IMG/VR virus record: IMGVR_UViG_3300031227_004810
Coordinates: 1 to 22,858 of that record
DNA: 22,858 nt
DNA from: a virus
Strand: one strand, 5' to 3'
The notes under the pieces were generated by a model. It saw nothing but the letters and a program-made list of their open reading frames with translations. It made no database searches and was not told the origin of the DNA. The translations under genes and the position numbers were made by a program. Below are positions 528 to 10,018 of the stretch, piece by piece; the first letter of the stretch is position 1; each line of letters starts with the position of its first letter.

Positions 528-748
528 GCTTTGGAATTGAGCTCCTCGTCTTTTAATGCCAAATCTTTTATCTTGTTTAATATGTTCAACCCTACAGTTA
601 AATCTTCTACAACTTTGGCTACATTCTCAGGAGTACTCATGGAGTCTAAAGTTTCTTTGAAGACCTTTTTAAGTTCTGGGTTTTCTCTAAATATTCTTTG
701 TATATTCTTCTTAGCTTCTTCTGCCTTTTCTTTAGAAGTTTTACTCAT
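524..748 (-). CDS. Hypothetical small charged protein (74 aa)
   Basis: Unrecognised 74-residue protein, rich in Lys and Glu, likely all helical (MSKTSKEKAEEAKKN at the N-terminus, then an amphipathic region ending KDEELNSKA). Its ATG is eight bases inside the end of the transglycosylase gene (ends at 741) and is preceded by GGGGAG four bases upstream, so it is translationally coupled to it. That makes it the last gene of the modification operon. No catalytic motif is visible. It could be a small partner of the transglycosylase, but only its position supports that. Confidence 0.7.
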   Translation of the reverse strand: MSKTSKEKAEEAKKNIQRIFRENPELKKVFKETLDSMSTPENVAKVVEDLTVGLNILNKIKDLALKDEELNSKA

Positions 749-2765
749 TTTTCTCCCCTTTCACTTCTATTATATTATTAATATCTATAATATCTTTATT
801 ACTTATTACTGAATTCTCAACCTCTTTTTTTGGTTCTGGTTCTGGTTCAAAAGAATCTTTACCTAATCTGTTTTTAAAGAGTTGTTCTATTATACTTCCT
901 TGTTGTGGATTTGTAACTTTAGTTTCCTGCTCACATGATCCATCTGCTTTTAAAGTTGTAGTTTGTCTCAATATTTGTGATGAACTATTGTCGTATAAGT
1001 TCTTTAATGTAGTTAGTAGTCTGATGTTTTGGTCAATCATAGCTGTTAAAGTACCATCAGGTACACCTGAGTCTAAGGTTTCAAATATCATAGCGCGTTG
1101 CATACGTTCAAGGTTCATTGCTATAATACCCTGTATAGCTTCGATTATATCTGTCATATTTCTAGTATCAAACCTCTTGAACATCTTACTATAAGCACAT
1201 ACATACCCCGCTTTAAATTCTGGACAAGTAGCAGCAGAATAGCATCTGTCACAAGCCAATTTAGGGTACTTCTCAGAGTACATTTGTTTTGGTCTGTGTA
1301 CGCTCTTCTGACCCTTTATGAACTTTCCTCCTTCATCTCTCACAGGTATTATATCTGTACCTTTAAATATCTCTTCATCCATAAGGTCAATAGGGTCTGT
1401 TGTATTCTCTGGAAGTAAGTTCTTTAAACTCTCTTTAACTTCCTCTTCTGTTAAATCTATTATATCGTGGGTTTCTTCCATCATGTAGCTCTCACGCTCT
1501 TTAACTACTCTATCGAATGTTGTTCCTTTGATTAACAACTTATCGTTCTCTCCCATTACAACATCAGTAAAGAACGATGTGAGTTCTTCTATTCTAGCAT
1601 CATCATCCTCACACATAGAGTTCAGATAGAAGTTGTATAGGTTTTTAATCGTGGTTTCATCTTTGAGATAGTCTTTAAGGAATAGTTGGTTATACCCTTC
1701 TTCTTTTCTCTTTATGAATAGGGTACAATCTAAAACTATATCCATAACACCTTCTGCTTCTGGGTTTATGTTTAAATCTTTTGCATAGGCTTCTGGCTTA
1801 TCAAATTCAGTCTTTCCCTCACACCATTCTAAGCTAGGGAACTTAACTTCTACTAAAGACTTGGGTTTTGCTACAGCAGGTTTCAACCAGTACATTCTGA
1901 TGTGCAGGTGGGTTCTTATATACTTCTCTGCTTCCATGAAAGCTATTATATTGGCTTTAACCATTTCATCAGTGTCTTCATCTAGTAGGAGTTTTCTATT
2001 TATACCCAAAGCTTCTATCTTATCTAGGTACTCACCCTTCCACTTATCTTTTTTGAGTCGTGTCATCTTCTTACCTGTCCAGAAATTTATCTCCCCATAC
2101 TGTAATCCGACTAACCATGTCGTACTATCTGAACTGTAGAATGGTAATTTTGGGAGAATAGCTGTCTTGGTCATACCATATCCATGGCATAGAGAGTTGT
2201 ATTTCTCTGCTGTCTTTAATTTTGCGAAGTATGCTGTGAAATCTAATGACACCCCGTTAGTATTTATTCCCGAAAATCCAACATAAGGGTATCTCTCACA
2301 GTACATATCCCAACTTAAAGCAGAATTGTCATGCCATACGAAACAAACAGGTATGTTATTCTCTATCATGAATGGTTCAAAGTACTCTTTGTTCCATCTA
2401 TCTACTACATCCCCACCTACTAGATTCTCAAAATCAAAATTAGCTATGGCAAAGATGTATTCTTTATGGTTTTTAACCCACTGTAGATACTTCTTTAGAT
2501 GCTCTTCCCAATACTCTACTGAATAATCTTCGTACTCAGCATTGTTTTGGTAGGTATGTGCACCAGAGTCAATGAATAATCGTACATCTTGACCCTCAAA
2601 TCTCTGCTTTATATCAATACTCTTACCCTGTATGTAATGATAGGACATAAGGAAACTTCTTATACCCAAATCATACAGGATTTTATAGTATCTATCGTTC
2701 TCTACTCCTGAATAAATGATTGTGAATAGCTTAGATGTATCCATTACATCTCTCATGTTTGACAT
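741..2765 (-). CDS. dpdA: DpdA/TGT-like DNA deazaguanine transglycosylase with long C-terminal extension
   Basis: Predicted to exchange guanine in DNA for a 7-deazaguanine such as preQ0. Residues about 10-290 look like the TIM barrel of the TGT superfamily. FIDSGAHTY (64-72) carries D66 in the place of the DSGG motif of tRNA-guanine transglycosylases, and YSSDSTTWLVG (210-220) holds D213 as the candidate nucleophile, as in phage DpdA proteins. The usual bacterial TGT zinc motif near the C-terminus is absent. The protein continues to 674 residues: an acidic linker, a C505-x2-C508-x5-C514-x8-C523 cluster, then a helical region (about 530-600) and a Pro-Glu tail. This extension is not part of standard TGT and I do not recognise it with certainty. 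GGAGGG four bases before the ATG sets the start. It overlaps the flavoprotein gene by 13 bases and follows folE in the same operon. The family call is good; the exact base inserted is inference. Confidence 0.75.
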   Translation of the reverse strand: MSNMRDVMDTSKLFTIIYSGVENDRYYKILYDLGIRSFLMSYHYIQGKSIDIKQRFEGQDVRLFIDSGAHTYQNNAEYEDYSVEYWEEHLKKYLQWVKNHKEYIFAIANFDFENLVGGDVVDRWNKEYFEPFMIENNIPVCFVWHDNSALSWDMYCERYPYVGFSGINTNGVSLDFTAYFAKLKTAEKYNSLCHGYGMTKTAILPKLPFYSSDSTTWLVGLQYGEINFWTGKKMTRLKKDKWKGEYLDKIEALGINRKLLLDEDTDEMVKANIIAFMEAEKYIRTHLHIRMYWLKPAVAKPKSLVEVKFPSLEWCEGKTEFDKPEAYAKDLNINPEAEGVMDIVLDCTLFIKRKEEGYNQLFLKDYLKDETTIKNLYNFYLNSMCEDDDARIEELTSFFTDVVMGENDKLLIKGTTFDRVVKERESYMMEETHDIIDLTEEEVKESLKNLLPENTTDPIDLMDEEIFKGTDIIPVRDEGGKFIKGQKSVHRPKQMYSEKYPKLACDRCYSAATCPEFKAGYVCAYSKMFKRFDTRNMTDIIEAIQGIIAMNLERMQRAMIFETLDSGVPDGTLTAMIDQNIRLLTTLKNLYDNSSSQILRQTTTLKADGSCEQETKVTNPQQGSIIEQLFKNRLGKDSFEPEPEPKKEVENSVISNKDIIDINNIIEVKGEKNE

Positions 2766-3310
2766 AAACCCTCCGTATTACTCATGTACTCTATAAGTTC
2801 TGAAATATTCCGTCTATCTTTCATACTTAAAGGTAACTTTTCATCATCTGTCTCTTTAAATATGCATCCCAACCATTTATAATCACAATAGTTACACACT
2901 CGTTTCAAAGACTTCACAACTAAGTCTGCCCCTCCCATATGAAAATTATCACCCGATACTAAAATACTGGCGAACATAACATTGTATAACTCCCCTTTAA
3001 CATTAGGCATATATAATCTATCTAAAAATGACTTAGCTTTGGCAGTTAGACCAAAGAAATATATAGGACTAGCAATAACTATTACATCATATCTAGTTAT
3101 TTCTTTTAAAACATCAGTCAATATATCCTGTGGTAAAGGACATTCATCTAAACACCTATCACAATGAATACATGCTTGTATCGGTCCCATGTATAAATGA
3201 AGGTATGTAGAAGTATGACCTTTTTTGGTTAGGGTTTTTCTAAACTCTTCTACTAACACTTCGGTGTTTCCATCTACTCTAGGACTACCTGAGACAACTA
3301 AAACTCTCAT
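2753..3310 (-). CDS. Iron-sulfur flavoprotein, NADPH-dependent FMN reductase family
   Basis: A 185-residue flavodoxin-like protein. SGSPRVDGNT (7-16) is the FMN phosphate-binding loop and SPIYFFGLTAKAKSFLDR (81-98) is the second typical flavin segment. Between them C47-x2-C50-x2-C53-x3-C57 is a compact cluster-binding motif like that of iron-sulfur flavoproteins (Isf family), so it probably carries FMN and a 4Fe-4S cluster. C139, C142 and C149 form a second cysteine group near the C-terminus. It starts at 3310, overlapping the folE stop by four bases (ATGA), and its own end overlaps the transglycosylase gene. Radical-SAM enzymes need a one-electron donor, usually flavodoxin, so it may serve QueE or the QueC-fused radical-SAM domain. 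That role is inferred from context. A direct reductase acting on the modified base is an alternative. Confidence 0.8.
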   Translation of the reverse strand: MRVLVVSGSPRVDGNTEVLVEEFRKTLTKKGHTSTYLHLYMGPIQACIHCDRCLDECPLPQDILTDVLKEITRYDVIVIASPIYFFGLTAKAKSFLDRLYMPNVKGELYNVMFASILVSGDNFHMGGADLVVKSLKRVCNYCDYKWLGCIFKETDDEKLPLSMKDRRNISELIEYMSNTEGLCQT

Positions 3311-3894
3311 TCTTCACCTGCCATTTTAAAAAACATTTCTCTTAGCTTCATGGCTCTATCTTCTGTCATTTGTAAGTTCCAAGCATCGAGTACTGTATCT
3401 GTAATACCCTCACTTTCTATCCCTCGACTTGACATACAAGTATGCTCTGCCCTTATTCTTACAATAATAAACTGAGGATTTATAACATCAGTTAAATATT
3501 TAAGAATATCCTTTACAAGCCTCTCTTGTATTTGAGGTCTTTTACTAAAATATTTCACTACTCTTGGTATTTTAGACAAACCTATTATCTTATCCTCGGG
3601 CAAGTATCCTACATCAACTGTACCCATGAACGGTAACCAATGGTGTGAACACATAGAATAAAACTTTATATGCTTAATTACAACAACGCCTGTATTTTCC
3701 TCTAAAGGAAATGTTTTCATACGAGAATTCAATTCAGCAATGTTGTAATCATTTCTATTCACAAATAACTCATTGTTGAACATTTTAGCCACTCTAAGTG
3801 GAGTCAATTTATTATCTTCACTCTCTTTTATTTCGAGTACATTCATTATAGCCTGCATATGTTCTCTAATTAATTCTACTTTATTATTTATCAT
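3307..3894 (-). CDS. folE: GTP cyclohydrolase I
   Basis: Converts GTP to dihydroneopterin triphosphate, the first step of folate and of 7-deazaguanine synthesis. The 195-residue length fits the family. The hallmark SMCSHHWLPFMGTVDVGYLP (80-99) supplies C82 and H85, and AEHTCMSSRGI (149-159) supplies C153, the expected zinc ligands. GLSKIPRVVKYFSKRPQIQE (105-124) is the conserved substrate-side segment. AGGAGA lies five bases before the ATG. The gene overlaps the HNH endonuclease before it and the flavoprotein after it by four bases each. Queuosine-type genes nearby suggest it supplies precursor for base modification rather than folate. Confidence 0.95.
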   Translation of the reverse strand: MINNKVELIREHMQAIMNVLEIKESEDNKLTPLRVAKMFNNELFVNRNDYNIAELNSRMKTFPLEENTGVVVIKHIKFYSMCSHHWLPFMGTVDVGYLPEDKIIGLSKIPRVVKYFSKRPQIQERLVKDILKYLTDVINPQFIIVRIRAEHTCMSSRGIESEGITDTVLDAWNLQMTEDRAMKLREMFFKMAGEE

Positions 3895-4694: not shown

Positions 4695-4817
4695 TTACCT
4701 TTCTCTTTTAGGAGCAGCAGCAGCTCTTGTTAAACCTCTACCAGCTTTAGCTTTAGCTCCAGCTTTCTTACCAGCTTTTGAAGCATCACTTCCACCTTCA
4801 GCATAAACTTTCATCAT
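4695..4817 (-). CDS. Small basic Lys/Ala/Gly-rich protein (40 aa)
   Basis: A 40-codon frame on the minus strand, too short for ordinary gene calling. It begins MMKVYAEGGSDASKAGKKAG and ends RAAAAPKRER; nearly all residues are Ala, Gly, Lys or Arg, so it is strongly basic. GAGGTG lies six bases before the first of two ATGs. It has its own perfect TATAAT box, a hairpin leader and a terminator, all signs of a real and perhaps highly expressed gene. The composition recalls small nucleic-acid-binding or histone-like tails. I recognise no family and no function is shown. Confidence 0.75.
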   Translation of the reverse strand: MMKVYAEGGSDASKAGKKAGAKAKAGRGLTRAAAAPKRER

Positions 4818-4952: not shown

Positions 4953-6620
4953 TTACGGTTCAATGTCATACTCACAAAAATAACAAGAAGGTATGTTACC
5001 TGAACAAAGGTTTAATCTGCTTAACTGTTTCAATCTCTGTTCTCTATAGTTTTTCAAACATGCTGATATACTTCCAGAGCCTGTGACATTTGTTATGGCA
5101 TGACTATTGTATTTTACTTGTGATATTTCTAATGCACAACCTAACAAGTATCCATCAGGTGTTAGTGTTACTTGCCACTGTCCCCTATTACAAAAGAACT
5201 CAAATGTTAATATCATACCGTTAACTGAATTCAATCCTGTATTTATCACATCGTTTACAAAAGGTGTGATGTAATAATCTCCCCGCAAAAACTTACTTGT
5301 CCAAACATTAGGTGAGTGGAAAGTTATTTCTAAGTTCTTGAACTCATAATACAAGCTTTTAAATACATCATCATACTCTCTAGCCGTAAGTATACTATCT
5401 AAGTTCTTAGCTTTCCCTACAGGTATTACAGGTTTAATGAAGAACTTCGTTACCCCGAAATGTAGGTGTAATGTACTCACTATATTATACACACTTTTGT
5501 AATTTCCCTTATGTACAGATATATGAATTTCCATAGGTATTTTGTTTTGTTCAAGTGCATGGAATGTAGTATATTTAATCTCTTCTGGTCTTACCTCTAC
5601 TTCATTGAGATTATCTACAGATAGCACAATCTTTTCAAATCCTGCAGTTTTTATATCTTCTATATATCTAACAACATTAACACCATTGGTTACTACATCG
5701 TATGTGACATCAGGAAAGTTAAACTTTAAATACTTTACATAGTCGAATATAGTATAGTCAAACATGGGTTCTTTCCCTGCAAAATGAACGTGCTCTATAT
5801 CCAATTCTCTAATTGTTCTACTTAGTGCATTACACTTTTCAAAATAACTCATCTCAGCAGTAACCAACTTTTCAGTATGGTAACAATGAGTACACTCAAA
5901 TTGACACCTATTATTTATTAAAAATCTTAACTCTGTTACAGGTTCTTTCATATAACTTTTCGCGAACTCATCTGTGTAACCTAGAGTGTCACCTAAACAC
6001 CATTCATACTGAGGATTGAATATTGTCTTTAAAGTTTCACAATCTCCACATTTACCGCAAGGCTTACCTTCTATGGGTGTGTTACAACTGAATACATCAT
6101 CTTCGTGCAACCCAAATTCTATAGCTTTCTGCATTAAATCATACTTGTTTAGTGCAGCATATGGAGCAAGTATTTGTACTCCTGCCATCATTGCAACTTT
6201 GTTAAGAGTATCTACAAATTCAATAGAAGTGTCTGTAAACCCAATATTCTGTGCAATTATTGCAGTGTATATTTCACTTACTCCTAAAGATTCTGCAACT
6301 GAAACTGCGTAAGATAAAAATATAAGGTTCCTCATAGGAATGTATTGGTCTTTATCATCAGGTGATATGTGAGAGTCATACAAAGTTGTTTTCGCCCAAA
6401 ATAAAGTAGGAAGTTCTATTTCCATAAATTCTGCGATTAGTTTTTTATTCATAACATTGATTTTTCTACACGCTGTATCCATGCAATTTCTTTCTTGAAC
6501 ATAATTTCTCTGTCCATAGTTAAAGAAAATACATCTTACATGGTTACCTCTACTTATCAATTCGTGTAAAAGAATTACACTGTCATATCCACCACTGTTT
6601 AACATTATAACTTTATTCAT
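4953..6620 (-). CDS. queC: QueC preQ0 synthase fused to a radical-SAM/SPASM-like enzyme
   Basis: A two-enzyme fusion of 555 residues. Residues 1 to about 225 are QueC, which turns 7-carboxy-7-deazaguanine into preQ0 using ATP and ammonia: SGGYDS (9-14) is the PP-loop, YIPMRN (93-98) the conserved RN segment, and C179, C188, C191 and C194 the zinc site. From about 230 a radical-SAM domain begins with RFLINNRCQFECTHCYHTE: C239-x3-C243-x2-C246 for the 4Fe-4S cluster, and AGKEPMF (281-287) in place of GGEP. C477, C495, C539, C546 and C549 at the C-terminus suggest SPASM-type auxiliary clusters. QueC alone is about 220-230 residues. An in-frame upstream extension to 6674 is rejected because AGGAGG sits four bases before the ATG at 6620. 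The gene follows queE by eight bases. The product of the radical-SAM part is unknown. Confidence 0.92.
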   Translation of the reverse strand: MNKVIMLNSGGYDSVILLHELISRGNHVRCIFFNYGQRNYVQERNCMDTACRKINVMNKKLIAEFMEIELPTLFWAKTTLYDSHISPDDKDQYIPMRNLIFLSYAVSVAESLGVSEIYTAIIAQNIGFTDTSIEFVDTLNKVAMMAGVQILAPYAALNKYDLMQKAIEFGLHEDDVFSCNTPIEGKPCGKCGDCETLKTIFNPQYEWCLGDTLGYTDEFAKSYMKEPVTELRFLINNRCQFECTHCYHTEKLVTAEMSYFEKCNALSRTIRELDIEHVHFAGKEPMFDYTIFDYVKYLKFNFPDVTYDVVTNGVNVVRYIEDIKTAGFEKIVLSVDNLNEVEVRPEEIKYTTFHALEQNKIPMEIHISVHKGNYKSVYNIVSTLHLHFGVTKFFIKPVIPVGKAKNLDSILTAREYDDVFKSLYYEFKNLEITFHSPNVWTSKFLRGDYYITPFVNDVINTGLNSVNGMILTFEFFCNRGQWQVTLTPDGYLLGCALEISQVKYNSHAITNVTGSGSISACLKNYREQRLKQLSRLNLCSGNIPSCYFCEYDIEP

Positions 6621-6628
6621 TTTTCCTC

Positions 6629-7267
6629 CTAAGGAACATTTAATATTTTCTGTAACTGAACTGATACTCTGCAATCAAGTTTATCTTTTATTATCCAATT
6701 GCATAGCTCTTTAGATATGACTGGATTGTTACCTACGAATACAGGGCTAAATAGTATCTTTGCTTTTGTTTCATACCTAGCTAAAACTCTCTTCGCGAAA
6801 TTATAATCTTCTACATCAAATACTACAAACTTTACTTCATCAATTGTTTTTAACCTAGATAGATTTGAATATACATTTTTATGTGATACATTACTGGATG
6901 GGCATTTTATATCCATAGTATATCTGTAACTTCGTGCATACTGGTCTTCTGCTATGTAGATACAACCGCTTGTTTCAATATTAACTCTGTATCCGCATCT
7001 TAACAATTCATACACTAAAGGGTAAGTGTCTGTCTGGAGTAAGGGTTCTCCTCCTGTCACACATACACTCCTTACTTTCAGTTTATAACTTCTTACTTTA
7101 TCTAAAATATCAGTGATTAACATATTTTTCGCCTTACTTGGTTCAGGTGTTGTGTCACAATAACTACAGTTTATATTGCACCCATACAATCTAACAAATA
7201 CAGTAACAAGACCTGCATCACTACCTTCACCCTGAACTGAGCAGAAAATCTCTGTAATTGATAACAT
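6629..7267 (-). CDS. queE: 7-carboxy-7-deazaguanine synthase (radical SAM)
   Basis: Rearranges 6-carboxytetrahydropterin to 7-carboxy-7-deazaguanine. It has 212 residues with ITEIFCSVQGEG (4-15), the typical QueE opening, the cluster motif C30-x3-C34-x2-C37 (GCNINCSYCDT), GGEPLL, and the C-terminal SVQLQKILNVP that matches the family. The frame is open to a TTG at 7288, but AAGGGGG lies eight bases before the ATG at 7267, which I take as the start. It sits between queD (27 bases upstream) and the queC fusion. It needs an electron donor; an iron-sulfur flavoprotein is encoded at 2753-3310. Confidence 0.93.
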   Translation of the reverse strand: MLSITEIFCSVQGEGSDAGLVTVFVRLYGCNINCSYCDTTPEPSKAKNMLITDILDKVRSYKLKVRSVCVTGGEPLLQTDTYPLVYELLRCGYRVNIETSGCIYIAEDQYARSYRYTMDIKCPSSNVSHKNVYSNLSRLKTIDEVKFVVFDVEDYNFAKRVLARYETKAKILFSPVFVGNNPVISKELCNWIIKDKLDCRVSVQLQKILNVP

Positions 7268-7294
7268 CTTGCAAACCCCCTTATTCAAAATAGG

Positions 7295-7711
7295 CTACTC
7301 ATAAATATTACCACCGCTATATTCTGCACAACTATTTGCTGTCTCCCAAAGTTTAACTTTCATTAACTTTAATTTTCTTATGTTAAATGGACCTAAAAGA
7401 GCATGAAATATAAATACTACTAAATTTTCAGCAGTAGTATTAAAATCAAATCTGAAATTTAAATTAGAATGATCCGTTATTTTGATGATATTAGTCTGTA
7501 CAATTTCTTTCATTTCATTATAGTCACACACAAATCCTTGCTCATCTAAACTTCCTGTTATAAATACTTCTAGTGAATACGTATGTCCATGTTCGTTTCC
7601 GCATGGACCATTATAGTCTATTAAATGATGTGCTGAGTCAAAGGTGAATACTCTTGATATTGTAACCTTTGCATTAGGTATGAATACTAATGAATTTTCT
7701 TTATTTATCAT
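7295..7711 (-). CDS. queD: 6-carboxy-5,6,7,8-tetrahydropterin synthase
   Basis: Converts dihydroneopterin triphosphate to 6-carboxytetrahydropterin. The 138-residue length and T-fold motifs fit: FTFDSAHHL (22-30) and CGNEHGHTYSLEV (37-49) give zinc histidines H28, H41 and H43 and the catalytic C37. DHSNLN (80-85) holds the catalytic Asp-His pair, and E123 in LWET is the pterin anchor. GGGAGG lies nine bases before the ATG. It precedes queE and the queC fusion, so pathway order matches gene order. Substrate would come from FolE encoded in the next operon. A folate-type pyruvoyltetrahydropterin synthase is the main alternative, unlikely given the neighbours. Confidence 0.93.
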   Translation of the reverse strand: MINKENSLVFIPNAKVTISRVFTFDSAHHLIDYNGPCGNEHGHTYSLEVFITGSLDEQGFVCDYNEMKEIVQTNIIKITDHSNLNFRFDFNTTAENLVVFIFHALLGPFNIRKLKLMKVKLWETANSCAEYSGGNIYE

Positions 7712-7734: not shown

Positions 7735-8001
7735 TTAATACATTAGTTTAAATATCATCATGGTTCTTTTCTCCCCGTCAATTTCTGTCTCACCAAACCC
7801 TACTCTCACTAACAGGTCTAATCCCTTTGATGCTAAAATACCTCTTGCAATGGCTGTAGCTTTTGCCATCTGATTTGTACTTGAAGCTCCTATTGCTCTC
7901 AACTCTACTTCTTTGTTGTCTTCAATTGATTTAACAATAGAACCCGATACAGCTTGTACACTAGAATGACCTGCAACTTTAAGTATTTTTAGTTCCTTCA
8001 T
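7735..8001 (-). CDS. spoVS: SpoVS-family protein
   Basis: An 88-residue protein matching the small stage V sporulation protein S family along its whole length: MKELKILKVAGHSSVQAVSG, AIGASSTNQMAKATAIARG, then GLDLLVRVGF and IDGEKRTMM. Bacillus SpoVS is about 86 residues and affects late sporulation; its fold is Alba-like, so nucleic-acid binding is possible. The frame is open further upstream, inside the signal peptidase gene, but GAGGGG eight bases before the ATG at 8001 fixes the start. It overlaps that gene by 23 bases. In a phage it could alter host sporulation or bind nucleic acid; neither is shown here. Confidence 0.88.
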   Translation of the reverse strand: MKELKILKVAGHSSVQAVSGSIVKSIEDNKEVELRAIGASSTNQMAKATAIARGILASKGLDLLVRVGFGETEIDGEKRTMMIFKLMY

Positions 8002-8356
8002 TATTTTTACCCCTCTTCTTATGGAAAATAACTTCAGCCACGATTGCTTTCTGCGATACATAACCATATTCTCTACTATCTGTAGAGTATTCTCTATTGT
8101 CTCCAATAAAGAAACATTCTTTCTTATCATTAACTGCAAACAATCTTTTTACAACTCTCAAACCACTTGGACTATCGTAAACATAGATATTCCCTAAAGT
8201 TGGTTTATAGAATCTGCAACATAAAATTACATCCCCATCTAAAAGAGTGGGTTTCATAGAACTACCAACTACTTCTGCGAGTGGAAACGAATAAACCATT
8301 GATGTTATTACGGTTAGTACTGAGATACCTGCTACCATGTATGCTGCTATATTCAT
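7979..8356 (-). CDS. Phage-encoded signal peptidase I (S26 family)
   Basis: A short type I signal peptidase of 125 residues. A membrane segment occupies about 5-23. VVGSSMKPTLLDGD (29-42) contains the catalytic S33 just before Met, and VVKRL (68-72) gives the catalytic K70. FIGDNREYSTDSREYG (83-98) is the conserved box E. The core is complete, but the beta-domain insert of larger enzymes is missing, as in small Gram-positive forms. The catalytic side would face outside the membrane. AAGGAG lies nine bases before the ATG. It sits between a nuclease gene and spoVS in the queD-queE-queC operon, with no obvious link to base modification; a membrane or exported phage protein may be its substrate. 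Confidence 0.88.
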   Translation of the reverse strand: MNIAAYMVAGISVLTVITSMVYSFPLAEVVGSSMKPTLLDGDVILCCRFYKPTLGNIYVYDSPSGLRVVKRLFAVNDKKECFFIGDNREYSTDSREYGYVSQKAIVAEVIFHKKRGKNNEGTKNT

Positions 8357-9205: not shown

Positions 9206-9760
9206 TCACTTCTTTTGCATATTCTCATTATGATTTTCATCTCTAAAGTCTAACCCTCTTCTGCTCATTTCTCTGGAAATAGAAAATATTGCATCTGAAA
9301 TACTTTCAAGATTGTTATACAAAAGTAACAGTTTCTTCTTATCATCCTTCATCTTCATAAAATAAGGTTTGACTTCTTCACAATTGTTAATCAATACCTC
9401 TTTTGCAGTTTCAGACATTTTCTTGTCTATAGAGTATTCTTTATACAACCCTATCTTGCTGTTAAAATATTCTCTCTTACTCTCTTCTAAGGAAATTTCT
9501 TGCCATCCTGTGAATGTTCTTATATACAACTTGTATTGGGTAAAGGTATTAAGGTAACGACCTAGGTCTTTTGATGATGAATTAGTTATGTCATTTGGTA
9601 GGGTTAAATACCTATTGTTTATATCTAGGTCTCCATCTAGGTCTATTGGTTTGAAAAACTTTACTTCTTTGTCTTCTAACTCACCTGTCAATTTCTCTAC
9701 TAAATTCTTCTTTAACACTTTAATTGGATTAATTGGGTTACTCGGTTTCTTCCTTAGCAT
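9206..9760 (-). CDS. Hypothetical phage protein (184 aa)
   Basis: I do not recognise this 184-residue protein. It has a basic N-terminus (MLRKKPSNPINPIKVLKKN), a middle segment with LPNDITNSSSKDLGRYLNTF, and a helical, Lys-rich second half (DDKKKLLLLYNNLESISDAI). No catalytic motif or membrane segment is visible. AAGGGG lies seven bases before the ATG. It is the last gene before the terminator of the recA operon and follows the 81-residue gene by 12 bases, so a role in recombination or replication is possible but not shown. Confidence 0.65.
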   Translation of the reverse strand: MLRKKPSNPINPIKVLKKNLVEKLTGELEDKEVKFFKPIDLDGDLDINNRYLTLPNDITNSSSKDLGRYLNTFTQYKLYIRTFTGWQEISLEESKREYFNSKIGLYKEYSIDKKMSETAKEVLINNCEEVKPYFMKMKDDKKKLLLLYNNLESISDAIFSISREMSRRGLDFRDENHNENMQKK

Positions 9761-9772
9761 ATCAATACCCCT

Positions 9773-10018
9773 TTACTGATTATATCTATCAAGATTAGCC
9801 AATATCATTTGGTCTATAATGTCTGCTTGTATGTGTCCTATAGCTTCATTTCTTACAGCCCAGTTAGCATTAAAGTATCCCGTAACCCATTGTCCTTCTT
9901 TGTCTTTCATTGCTAGTACAATAGTATCTATAGAATCAGTTTTCTCGTCTAATACTAATTCACTTAAAAACTCTTTGGCTTTTTCTACTTTTGATTTAAA
10001 ATGCAATATATTATCCAT
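9773..10018 (-). CDS. Hypothetical phage protein (81 aa)
   Basis: Unrecognised 81-residue protein. The N-terminal third is helical and charged; then IVLAMKDKEGQWVTGYFNA looks like a beta hairpin, and GHIQADIIDQMILANLDRYN is a C-terminal helix, a layout seen in small conserved phage proteins of unknown function. AGGAGG lies five bases before the ATG at 10018, which is better than the in-frame start at 10045. It overlaps the dNMP kinase gene by eight bases. Confidence 0.65.
   Translation of the reverse strand: MDNILHFKSKVEKAKEFLSELVLDEKTDSIDTIVLAMKDKEGQWVTGYFNANWAVRNEAIGHIQADIIDQMILANLDRYNQ

Follow-up and report, generated by a model that had tools for sequence, protein, structure and literature searches.

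The window (the whole stretch of 22,858 nucleotides that was analysed, IMG/VR virus record IMGVR_UViG_3300031227_004810) encodes a protein in which a QueC domain is joined in frame to a radical-SAM domain, within a group of 7-deazaguanine genes. The features are as follows:

741..2765, minus strand: DpdA-like DNA-guanine transglycosylase with a long C-terminal extension (phrog_887, 5.6e-70)
2753..3310, minus strand: FMN-reductase-like flavoprotein with a Cys cluster (FMN_red, 2.8e-21)
3307..3894, minus strand: FolE, GTP cyclohydrolase I (2.7e-48)
4695..4817, minus strand: small basic ORF starting MMKVYAEGG, directly downstream of the fusion gene in all three loci that carry it
4953..6620, minus strand: QueC/radical-SAM fusion gene, 555 aa, with full-length relatives at L003:6529-8196 and L008:7992-9671
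4956..5945, minus strand: radical-SAM and twitch/SPASM-like half, residues 226-555 (Pfam, NCBIfam scores and fold matches)
5136..5192, minus strand: C477-x12-G490-x4-C495, first part of the SPASM/twitch auxiliary-cluster motif, invariant in the three fusions
5883..5906, minus strand: radical-SAM cluster motif C239-x3-C243-x2-C246, invariant in the three fusions
5946..6020, minus strand: variable linker of low identity, residues 201-225
6021..6620, minus strand: QueC (PP-loop ATPase) half, residues 1-200 (Pfam, motifs and fold matches)
6629..7288, minus strand: QueE, 7-carboxy-7-deazaguanine (CDG) synthase (phrog_2076, 2e-35; TIGR04349, 3.4e-58, under its cut-off)
7295..7711, minus strand: QueD, 6-carboxytetrahydropterin synthase (PTPS, 5e-32)

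The fusion is genuine and conserved. Its frame runs from the ATG at 6620 to the stop at 4953 through 555 codons with no internal stop, and a ribosome-binding site is present, TTAGGAGGAAAA preceding the ATG. A preliminary description of this DNA had placed an in-frame fusion at 4953-6620, and those coordinates are right, with the gene on the minus strand. Pfam matches QueC at residues 3-199 (3.1e-34; PF06508, 118.8 bits vs a cut-off of 22) and Radical_SAM at residues 235-341 (9.3e-10; PF04055, 39.4 bits vs 29.5), both above the curated cut-offs, and PHROGs give the same picture (phrog_1550, QueC-like, and phrog_1802, radical SAM). L003 comes from an 84-kb IMG/VR contig that was reached via a DpdA search, and its fusion is 32% identical to that of the window. 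L008 is contig JACDNZ010000010.1 of a Thermosipho MAG, found by scanning GTDB genomes with a two-row alignment; its fusion is 39% identical over residues 3-554, and the contig is a myovirus genome with genes for terminase, portal, major capsid, sheath and tube. The BFVD entry A0A8S5QS09 (Myoviridae sp. ctgXL3, 571 aa) is 32% identical to the window fusion over 565 columns. Since the same two-domain frame recurs in L003, L008 and the BFVD entry, chance or an assembly accident is excluded. Three lineages are counted (window, L003 and L008), and A0A8S5QS09 may be a fourth or lie near L003. Measured against the window, the QueC half has 38-47% identity and the radical-SAM core 30-35%, with the linker at only 15-16%; between the fusions, the linker is 15-19% identical compared with 30-48% in the flanking domains. 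Conserved halves around an unconserved linker are what is expected of two selected domains.

The fusion is carried by a rare family of tailed phages. Within the nucleotide collections searched it was seen in three lineages only, to which the one BFVD entry is added. When the fusion was scanned as a single protein, viral contigs gave no relative (alignment queries were needed to reach the relatives), and the same type of scan of INPHARED phages gave, among the matches listed, only matches to the QueC half, none covering 80%. The radical half as a lone query found no standalone relatives in viral contigs, and the motif TPDGY[LI]LGC, searched as DNA, led to contigs already known and no others. 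The 103 genomes from the phylum of the Thermosipho MAG yielded the single fusion of L008; the 398 genomes sampled from the phylum of a Clostridia-type host yielded none, an empty answer that had no positive control there. The literature searched, mostly papers outside subscription, names no QueC/radical-SAM fusion, and neither do the results of the 2026 PF06508 survey, in whose text the word 'SPASM' is absent (PMC13329287). The type of pathway is already known; the QueC/radical-SAM fusion is a new variant within it.

A survey of the gene neighbourhoods finds the fusion with QueD, QueE, FolE and DpdA in all three lineages, in the order SpoVS-like gene, QueD, QueE, fusion, small basic ORF, FolE and DpdA, with occasional inserted genes; QueE is indeed encoded separately next door, as had been noted at the outset. 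In the window and in L008 the flavoprotein, a possible electron donor, separates FolE from DpdA; it was not seen in L003. Residues D66 and D213 of the window DpdA align with invariant Asp residues of phage 9g and CRB2 DpdA, and the catalytic Asp residues are intact in all three loci. A DpdA system, meaning a DpdA with catalytic Asp residues together with FolE, QueD, QueE and a QueC, is therefore present, and no member of the QueC family other than the fusion was found in the phage contigs. Because QueD, QueE, FolE and an intact DpdA surround it and there is no other QueC, the fusion is concluded to stand in for QueC in a 7-deazaguanine DNA-modification pathway. The rest of the Thermosipho MAG, which may be incomplete, holds no clear QueC (just weak PF06508 cross-matches) and no QueF above the cut-off, and a TGT is present. 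No QueF-type preQ0-consuming enzyme was found, the QueF family matching FolE alone and under its cut-off; the virus records, too, may be incomplete. Family search or inspection by eye assigns the neighbours identified in the three loci to the deazaguanine pathway, replication, recombination and processing, and no CD-NTase or Qat gene was seen among them. More distant DpdA phages (L144-L146 and L108, Bacteroides phage BS162P1) have a standalone QueC-like gene near DpdA at the equivalent place; thus, it looks as if the radical half had been added to a QueC slot.

Several side observations were made on the deazaguanine genes of these and related phages. The SpoVS-like gene lies near the deazaguanine genes in the window (7735-8139, minus strand), L003, L008, L108, L144 and L146, with or without a fusion; matches in L109 and L145 are weaker and look out of frame. 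DpdA is a single long protein in the fusion phages (741-2765 in the window), while in the distant phages (L108 10034-11666; L144-L146) two separate ORFs match it, one to the catalytic N-terminal part and the other to the Cys-rich C-terminal part. The 5.6-kb viral contig L007 carries two adjacent, different QueC-like genes (1816-3109) beside DpdA, QueD, QueE and FolE. At 9241-9933, next to DpdA, L144 encodes a standalone QueC-like protein that has SCDNP and whose PP-loop is degenerate (SAGKES).

The QueC half had been called intact, and this holds for the nucleotide- and metal-binding motifs. The PP-loop (SGGYDS or SGGFDS) and the cysteines of the Zn motif C179-x8-C188-x2-C191-x2-C194 are kept in all three fusions, the first gap being one residue longer in L008. 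Together with the RN of VPxRN and the place in the pathway, these motifs (SGGxDS and C-x8-C-x2-C-x2-C) are shared with canonical QueC (PF06508 cluster 1), and Y35 and an aromatic residue in the YPDC region are also retained. The fusions differ from canonical QueC in having Asn or Asp at Tyr189, the Tyr after the first Zn Cys (SCNTP or SCDTP), [FY][ST]DT for YPDC, Asn for the His of YxQxHxxE, and the extra 330-residue radical-SAM half; the window reads FTDT, Asn and YGQRN in place of YPDC, Tyr and YGQRH. The NCBIfam equivalog TIGR00364 reaches 104.8 bits on the window fusion, under its cut-off of 150.3. Nearly all standalone QueC proteins compared keep SCY, the exceptions being L017, one L007 gene and L144, so that loss of this Tyr is not exclusive to the fusion. 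In the PF06508 survey, which also defines the canonical signature, the E. coli QueC mutants Y35A, R99A, Y131A and Y189A are inactive (PMC13329287). Since all three fusions lack the YPDC Cys and a Tyr that E. coli QueC cannot do without, the QueC half would not be intact in function and may not make plain preQ0.

The fold of the fusion was modelled with AF2; a 3-row alignment gave a pLDDT of 56, which was too poor, and the model from 26 rows (pLDDT 78) was used. For the QueC half, Cap9 is the closest in fold (Z 21.6), ahead of QueC (Z 20.1 and 19.1). Cap9 and QatC are protein-modifying relatives of QueC. Cap9, of type IV CBASS, attaches CDG to an amine of CdnD, using a protein amine in place of ammonia (PMC13279940), and it too lacks the Tyr after the first Zn Cys, reading SCE there (cf. 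PMC13329287). The shared loss of Tyr and the fold match suggest that the QueC half may use an amine other than ammonia. The resemblance has limits, since Cap9 and QatC have no radical-SAM domain and occur in a defence context with a CD-NTase or QatB, Cap9 keeps YxDC, and the fusion sits in a DpdA pathway.

The radical-SAM motif C239-x3-C243-x2-C246 is present as first described, and VTNG is conserved across the fusion lineages. The GGEP found in all 14 of the other radical-SAM proteins aligned is replaced by GKEP, GKEP and GREP in the fusions. By sequence, the closest families are MoaA and NirJ2 with all NCBIfam scores far under the cut-offs, and on these scores the radical half belongs to no curated family. 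It was considered as a second QueE and rejected: the one QueE model that matched, TIGR03963, gives 5e-4 (19.9 bits, cut-off 260) vs 3e-58 for the neighbouring QueE. Thus, the earlier view that this half must do something other than QueE is borne out by family scores as far as QueE goes, and the 'must' was a matter of inference.

The C-terminal cysteines had been counted as five, but there are six after residue 470 (477, 495, 521, 539, 546 and 549), and only C477, C495 and C546 are aligned across the three fusions. The seven-cysteine motif of SPASM domains is C-x9-15-G-x4-C ... C-x2-C-x5-C-x3-C ... C. The first part occurs in the radical half and the second is absent, with C546 alone invariant beyond the first. 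The label 'SPASM-like' therefore fits the twitch/SPASM-like fold and the first motif part but not the full cysteine set. The half may contain a twitch domain, a truncated SPASM with three or four cysteines for a single auxiliary cluster: three cysteines are invariant and the fold matches MoaA (Z 17.2) and BtrN (Z 13.3), but residues 537-555 are modelled poorly (pLDDT < 50).

The fold matches of the radical half (PqqE, Z 18.1; SuiB, 18.0; MoaA, 17.2; also anSME and viperin) span a range of about 16.5-18, and BlsE is among both its fold and its sequence relatives. MoaA, PqqE, SuiB, anSME and BlsE likewise have a radical-SAM core and then an auxiliary-cluster domain, and MoaA is the best or near-best sequence family, but the fusion differs from all of them in its scores far under the cut-offs, its G[KR]EP and its three invariant C-terminal cysteines. 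Enzymes acting on small molecules (MoaA and BlsE) and on peptides or proteins (PqqE, SuiB and anSME) have similar Z scores, and with values so nearly equal the fold gives no preference for either kind of substrate.

The reading preferred here, with a probability of about 0.5, is that the fusion is a bifunctional enzyme of a phage DNA-hypermodification pathway that combines CDG activation, radical tailoring and insertion by DpdA. FolE, QueD and QueE would make CDG. The QueC half would bind ATP and CDG and activate the carboxylate, and its altered active site makes an amine other than ammonia possible. The radical-SAM/twitch half would then carry out radical tailoring of the 7-substituent, acting on either the free base or the base already in DNA, and DpdA would swap guanine in the phage DNA for the tailored base. 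Retention of the PP-loop, the Zn-Cys4 site and the three radical-SAM cysteines in all three fusions is consistent with this scheme.

The logic of tailoring and then insertion follows two known systems. Gat-QueC of phage 9g and archaea likewise joins QueC to a second catalytic domain within a FolE-QueD-QueE-DpdA phage cluster; it makes dG+ and channels it to DpdA, so that the fused partner alters the base inserted and marks the next chemical step in phages (PMC6884629). It differs in that the partner is an N-terminal class-II glutamine amidotransferase and the 9g QueC keeps SCY and YPDN. Archaeosine is made from preQ0 by ArcS with the radical-SAM enzyme RaSEA (PMC11298593), so that here too a radical-SAM enzyme modifies a base derived from preQ0 while complexed with the enzyme that catalyses the step before. 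RaSEA differs in that its substrate is tRNA-bound preQ0-Lys, and it is not among the NCBIfam matches listed for the fusions. In addition, MoaA binds guanine N1 at its twitch-domain cluster (PMC9012708). Weighing against the tailoring enzyme are the fold of the radical half, as close to PqqE and SuiB as to MoaA, the replacement of GGEP by G[KR]EP, the few lineages and the loss of the E. coli-essential Tyr, which could mean a different or a lost QueC reaction.

It is probable that these phages incorporate an unusual modified base into their DNA. What we infer of the two chemical steps and their product extends no further than a 7-substituted 7-deazaguanine other than preQ0. That the base is a previously undescribed one, in which CDG has received an unusual amine (or been modified further) and the radical half installs or rearranges the 7-substituent, is put forward tentatively. 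The preliminary description had proposed action on preQ0, its precursor or the inserted base and a new 7-substituted deazaguanine; the DpdA-dependent setting agrees with this, while the new base itself was conjecture. More and more DNA bases able to block restriction enzymes are coming from phage 7-deazaguanine pathways, and new phage bases have tended to accompany a recognizable extra enzyme. A second radical-SAM domain on QueC, kept in divergent phages including that of the Thermosipho MAG, points to chemistry without an assignment so far, and the fusion, if correctly interpreted, would be a radical-SAM tailoring enzyme for 7-deazaguanine in DNA.

An unlikely alternative, though one that deserves weight, is that the QueC half makes ordinary preQ0 or ADG, that the radical half (regulatory, degenerate or unrelated) has no effect and that the DNA carries dPreQ0 or dADG. 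FolE, QueD, QueE, QueC and DpdA are the minimal set that gives dPreQ0 in CAjan and Rosebush (PMC6884629), the PP-loop and Zn site are retained, and G[KR]EP stands where the other aligned radical-SAM proteins have GGEP. However, lineages whose radical halves are just 28-36% identical to that of the window still share the three radical-SAM cysteines, VTNG and the SPASM-like motif, which argues for a selected function, and the QueC half has lost Y189 and the YPDC Cys, needed or conserved in canonical QueC.

Bases other than preQ0 are already known from phages, dDG and dCDG among them. It is improbable that the radical half leads by another route to such a known 7-deazaguanine, either archaeosine through RaSEA-like cleavage of an amine adduct or 7-deazaguanine through decarboxylation of CDG: RaSEA is a radical-SAM enzyme of a deazaguanine pathway (PMC11298593), the radical-SAM decarboxylase BlsE is a relative and dG+ occurs in phages (PMC6884629), but RaSEA is missing from the family matches listed, no ArcS-like protein was noticed among the neighbours of the fusion and a decarboxylase would have no need of the QueC half.

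It is equally doubtful that the QueC half puts CDG on an amine of a phage or host protein on which the SPASM-like half then acts. The fold of the QueC half, best matched by Cap9 in complex with its modified partner, would suit such a role, as would the shared absence of Tyr and the high rank of PqqE, SuiB and anSME among the fold matches of the radical half, and the small conserved ORF after the fusion in all three loci is a candidate substrate. On the other hand, canonical QueC folds follow close behind Cap9, the fusion is surrounded by a complete DpdA pathway for DNA with no other QueC, and the small ORF looks like a virion protein. A protein-bound product would connect phages with protein modification of the Cap9 type.

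The small ORF has its own leader in each locus (L003 8327-8506; L008 about 9810-9977), a conserved start, [MI]K[VA][YF]AEG, and a terminator-like hairpin 3' of it (read by eye). A scan of viral-contig DNA for MK[VA][YF]AEGG found such small ORFs only beside the fusion, the remaining matches falling in unrelated frames. Its N-terminal [VA][YF]A|EG start is common to the major capsid, scaffold-like, tail tube and terminase proteins of these phages. Its own leader, the hairpin and the [AV]xA start shared with virion proteins make the small ORF a probable virion protein, possibly a packaged DNA-binding protein, rather than a pathway member; a role as substrate of the fusion is less likely. A RiPP precursor was rejected because a start shared with capsid, scaffold-like, tube and terminase proteins fits a processed virion protein better, and a riboswitch in the leader was rejected on the lack of an Rfam match, fold z-scores of only -1.5 to -3.0 and a poor alignment.

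A signal-peptidase-like S26/S24 gene is present in all three loci (window 7979-8356, minus strand; L008 5743-6081; L003 1276-1656), and leaders ending in [AV][YFN]A| occur on the major capsid, scaffold-like and tail tube proteins and the terminase large subunit in two phages (structural genes of L121 and L125) as well as on the small ORF. The conserved protease gene and the common leaders suggest that the capsid is matured by a signal-peptidase-type protease.
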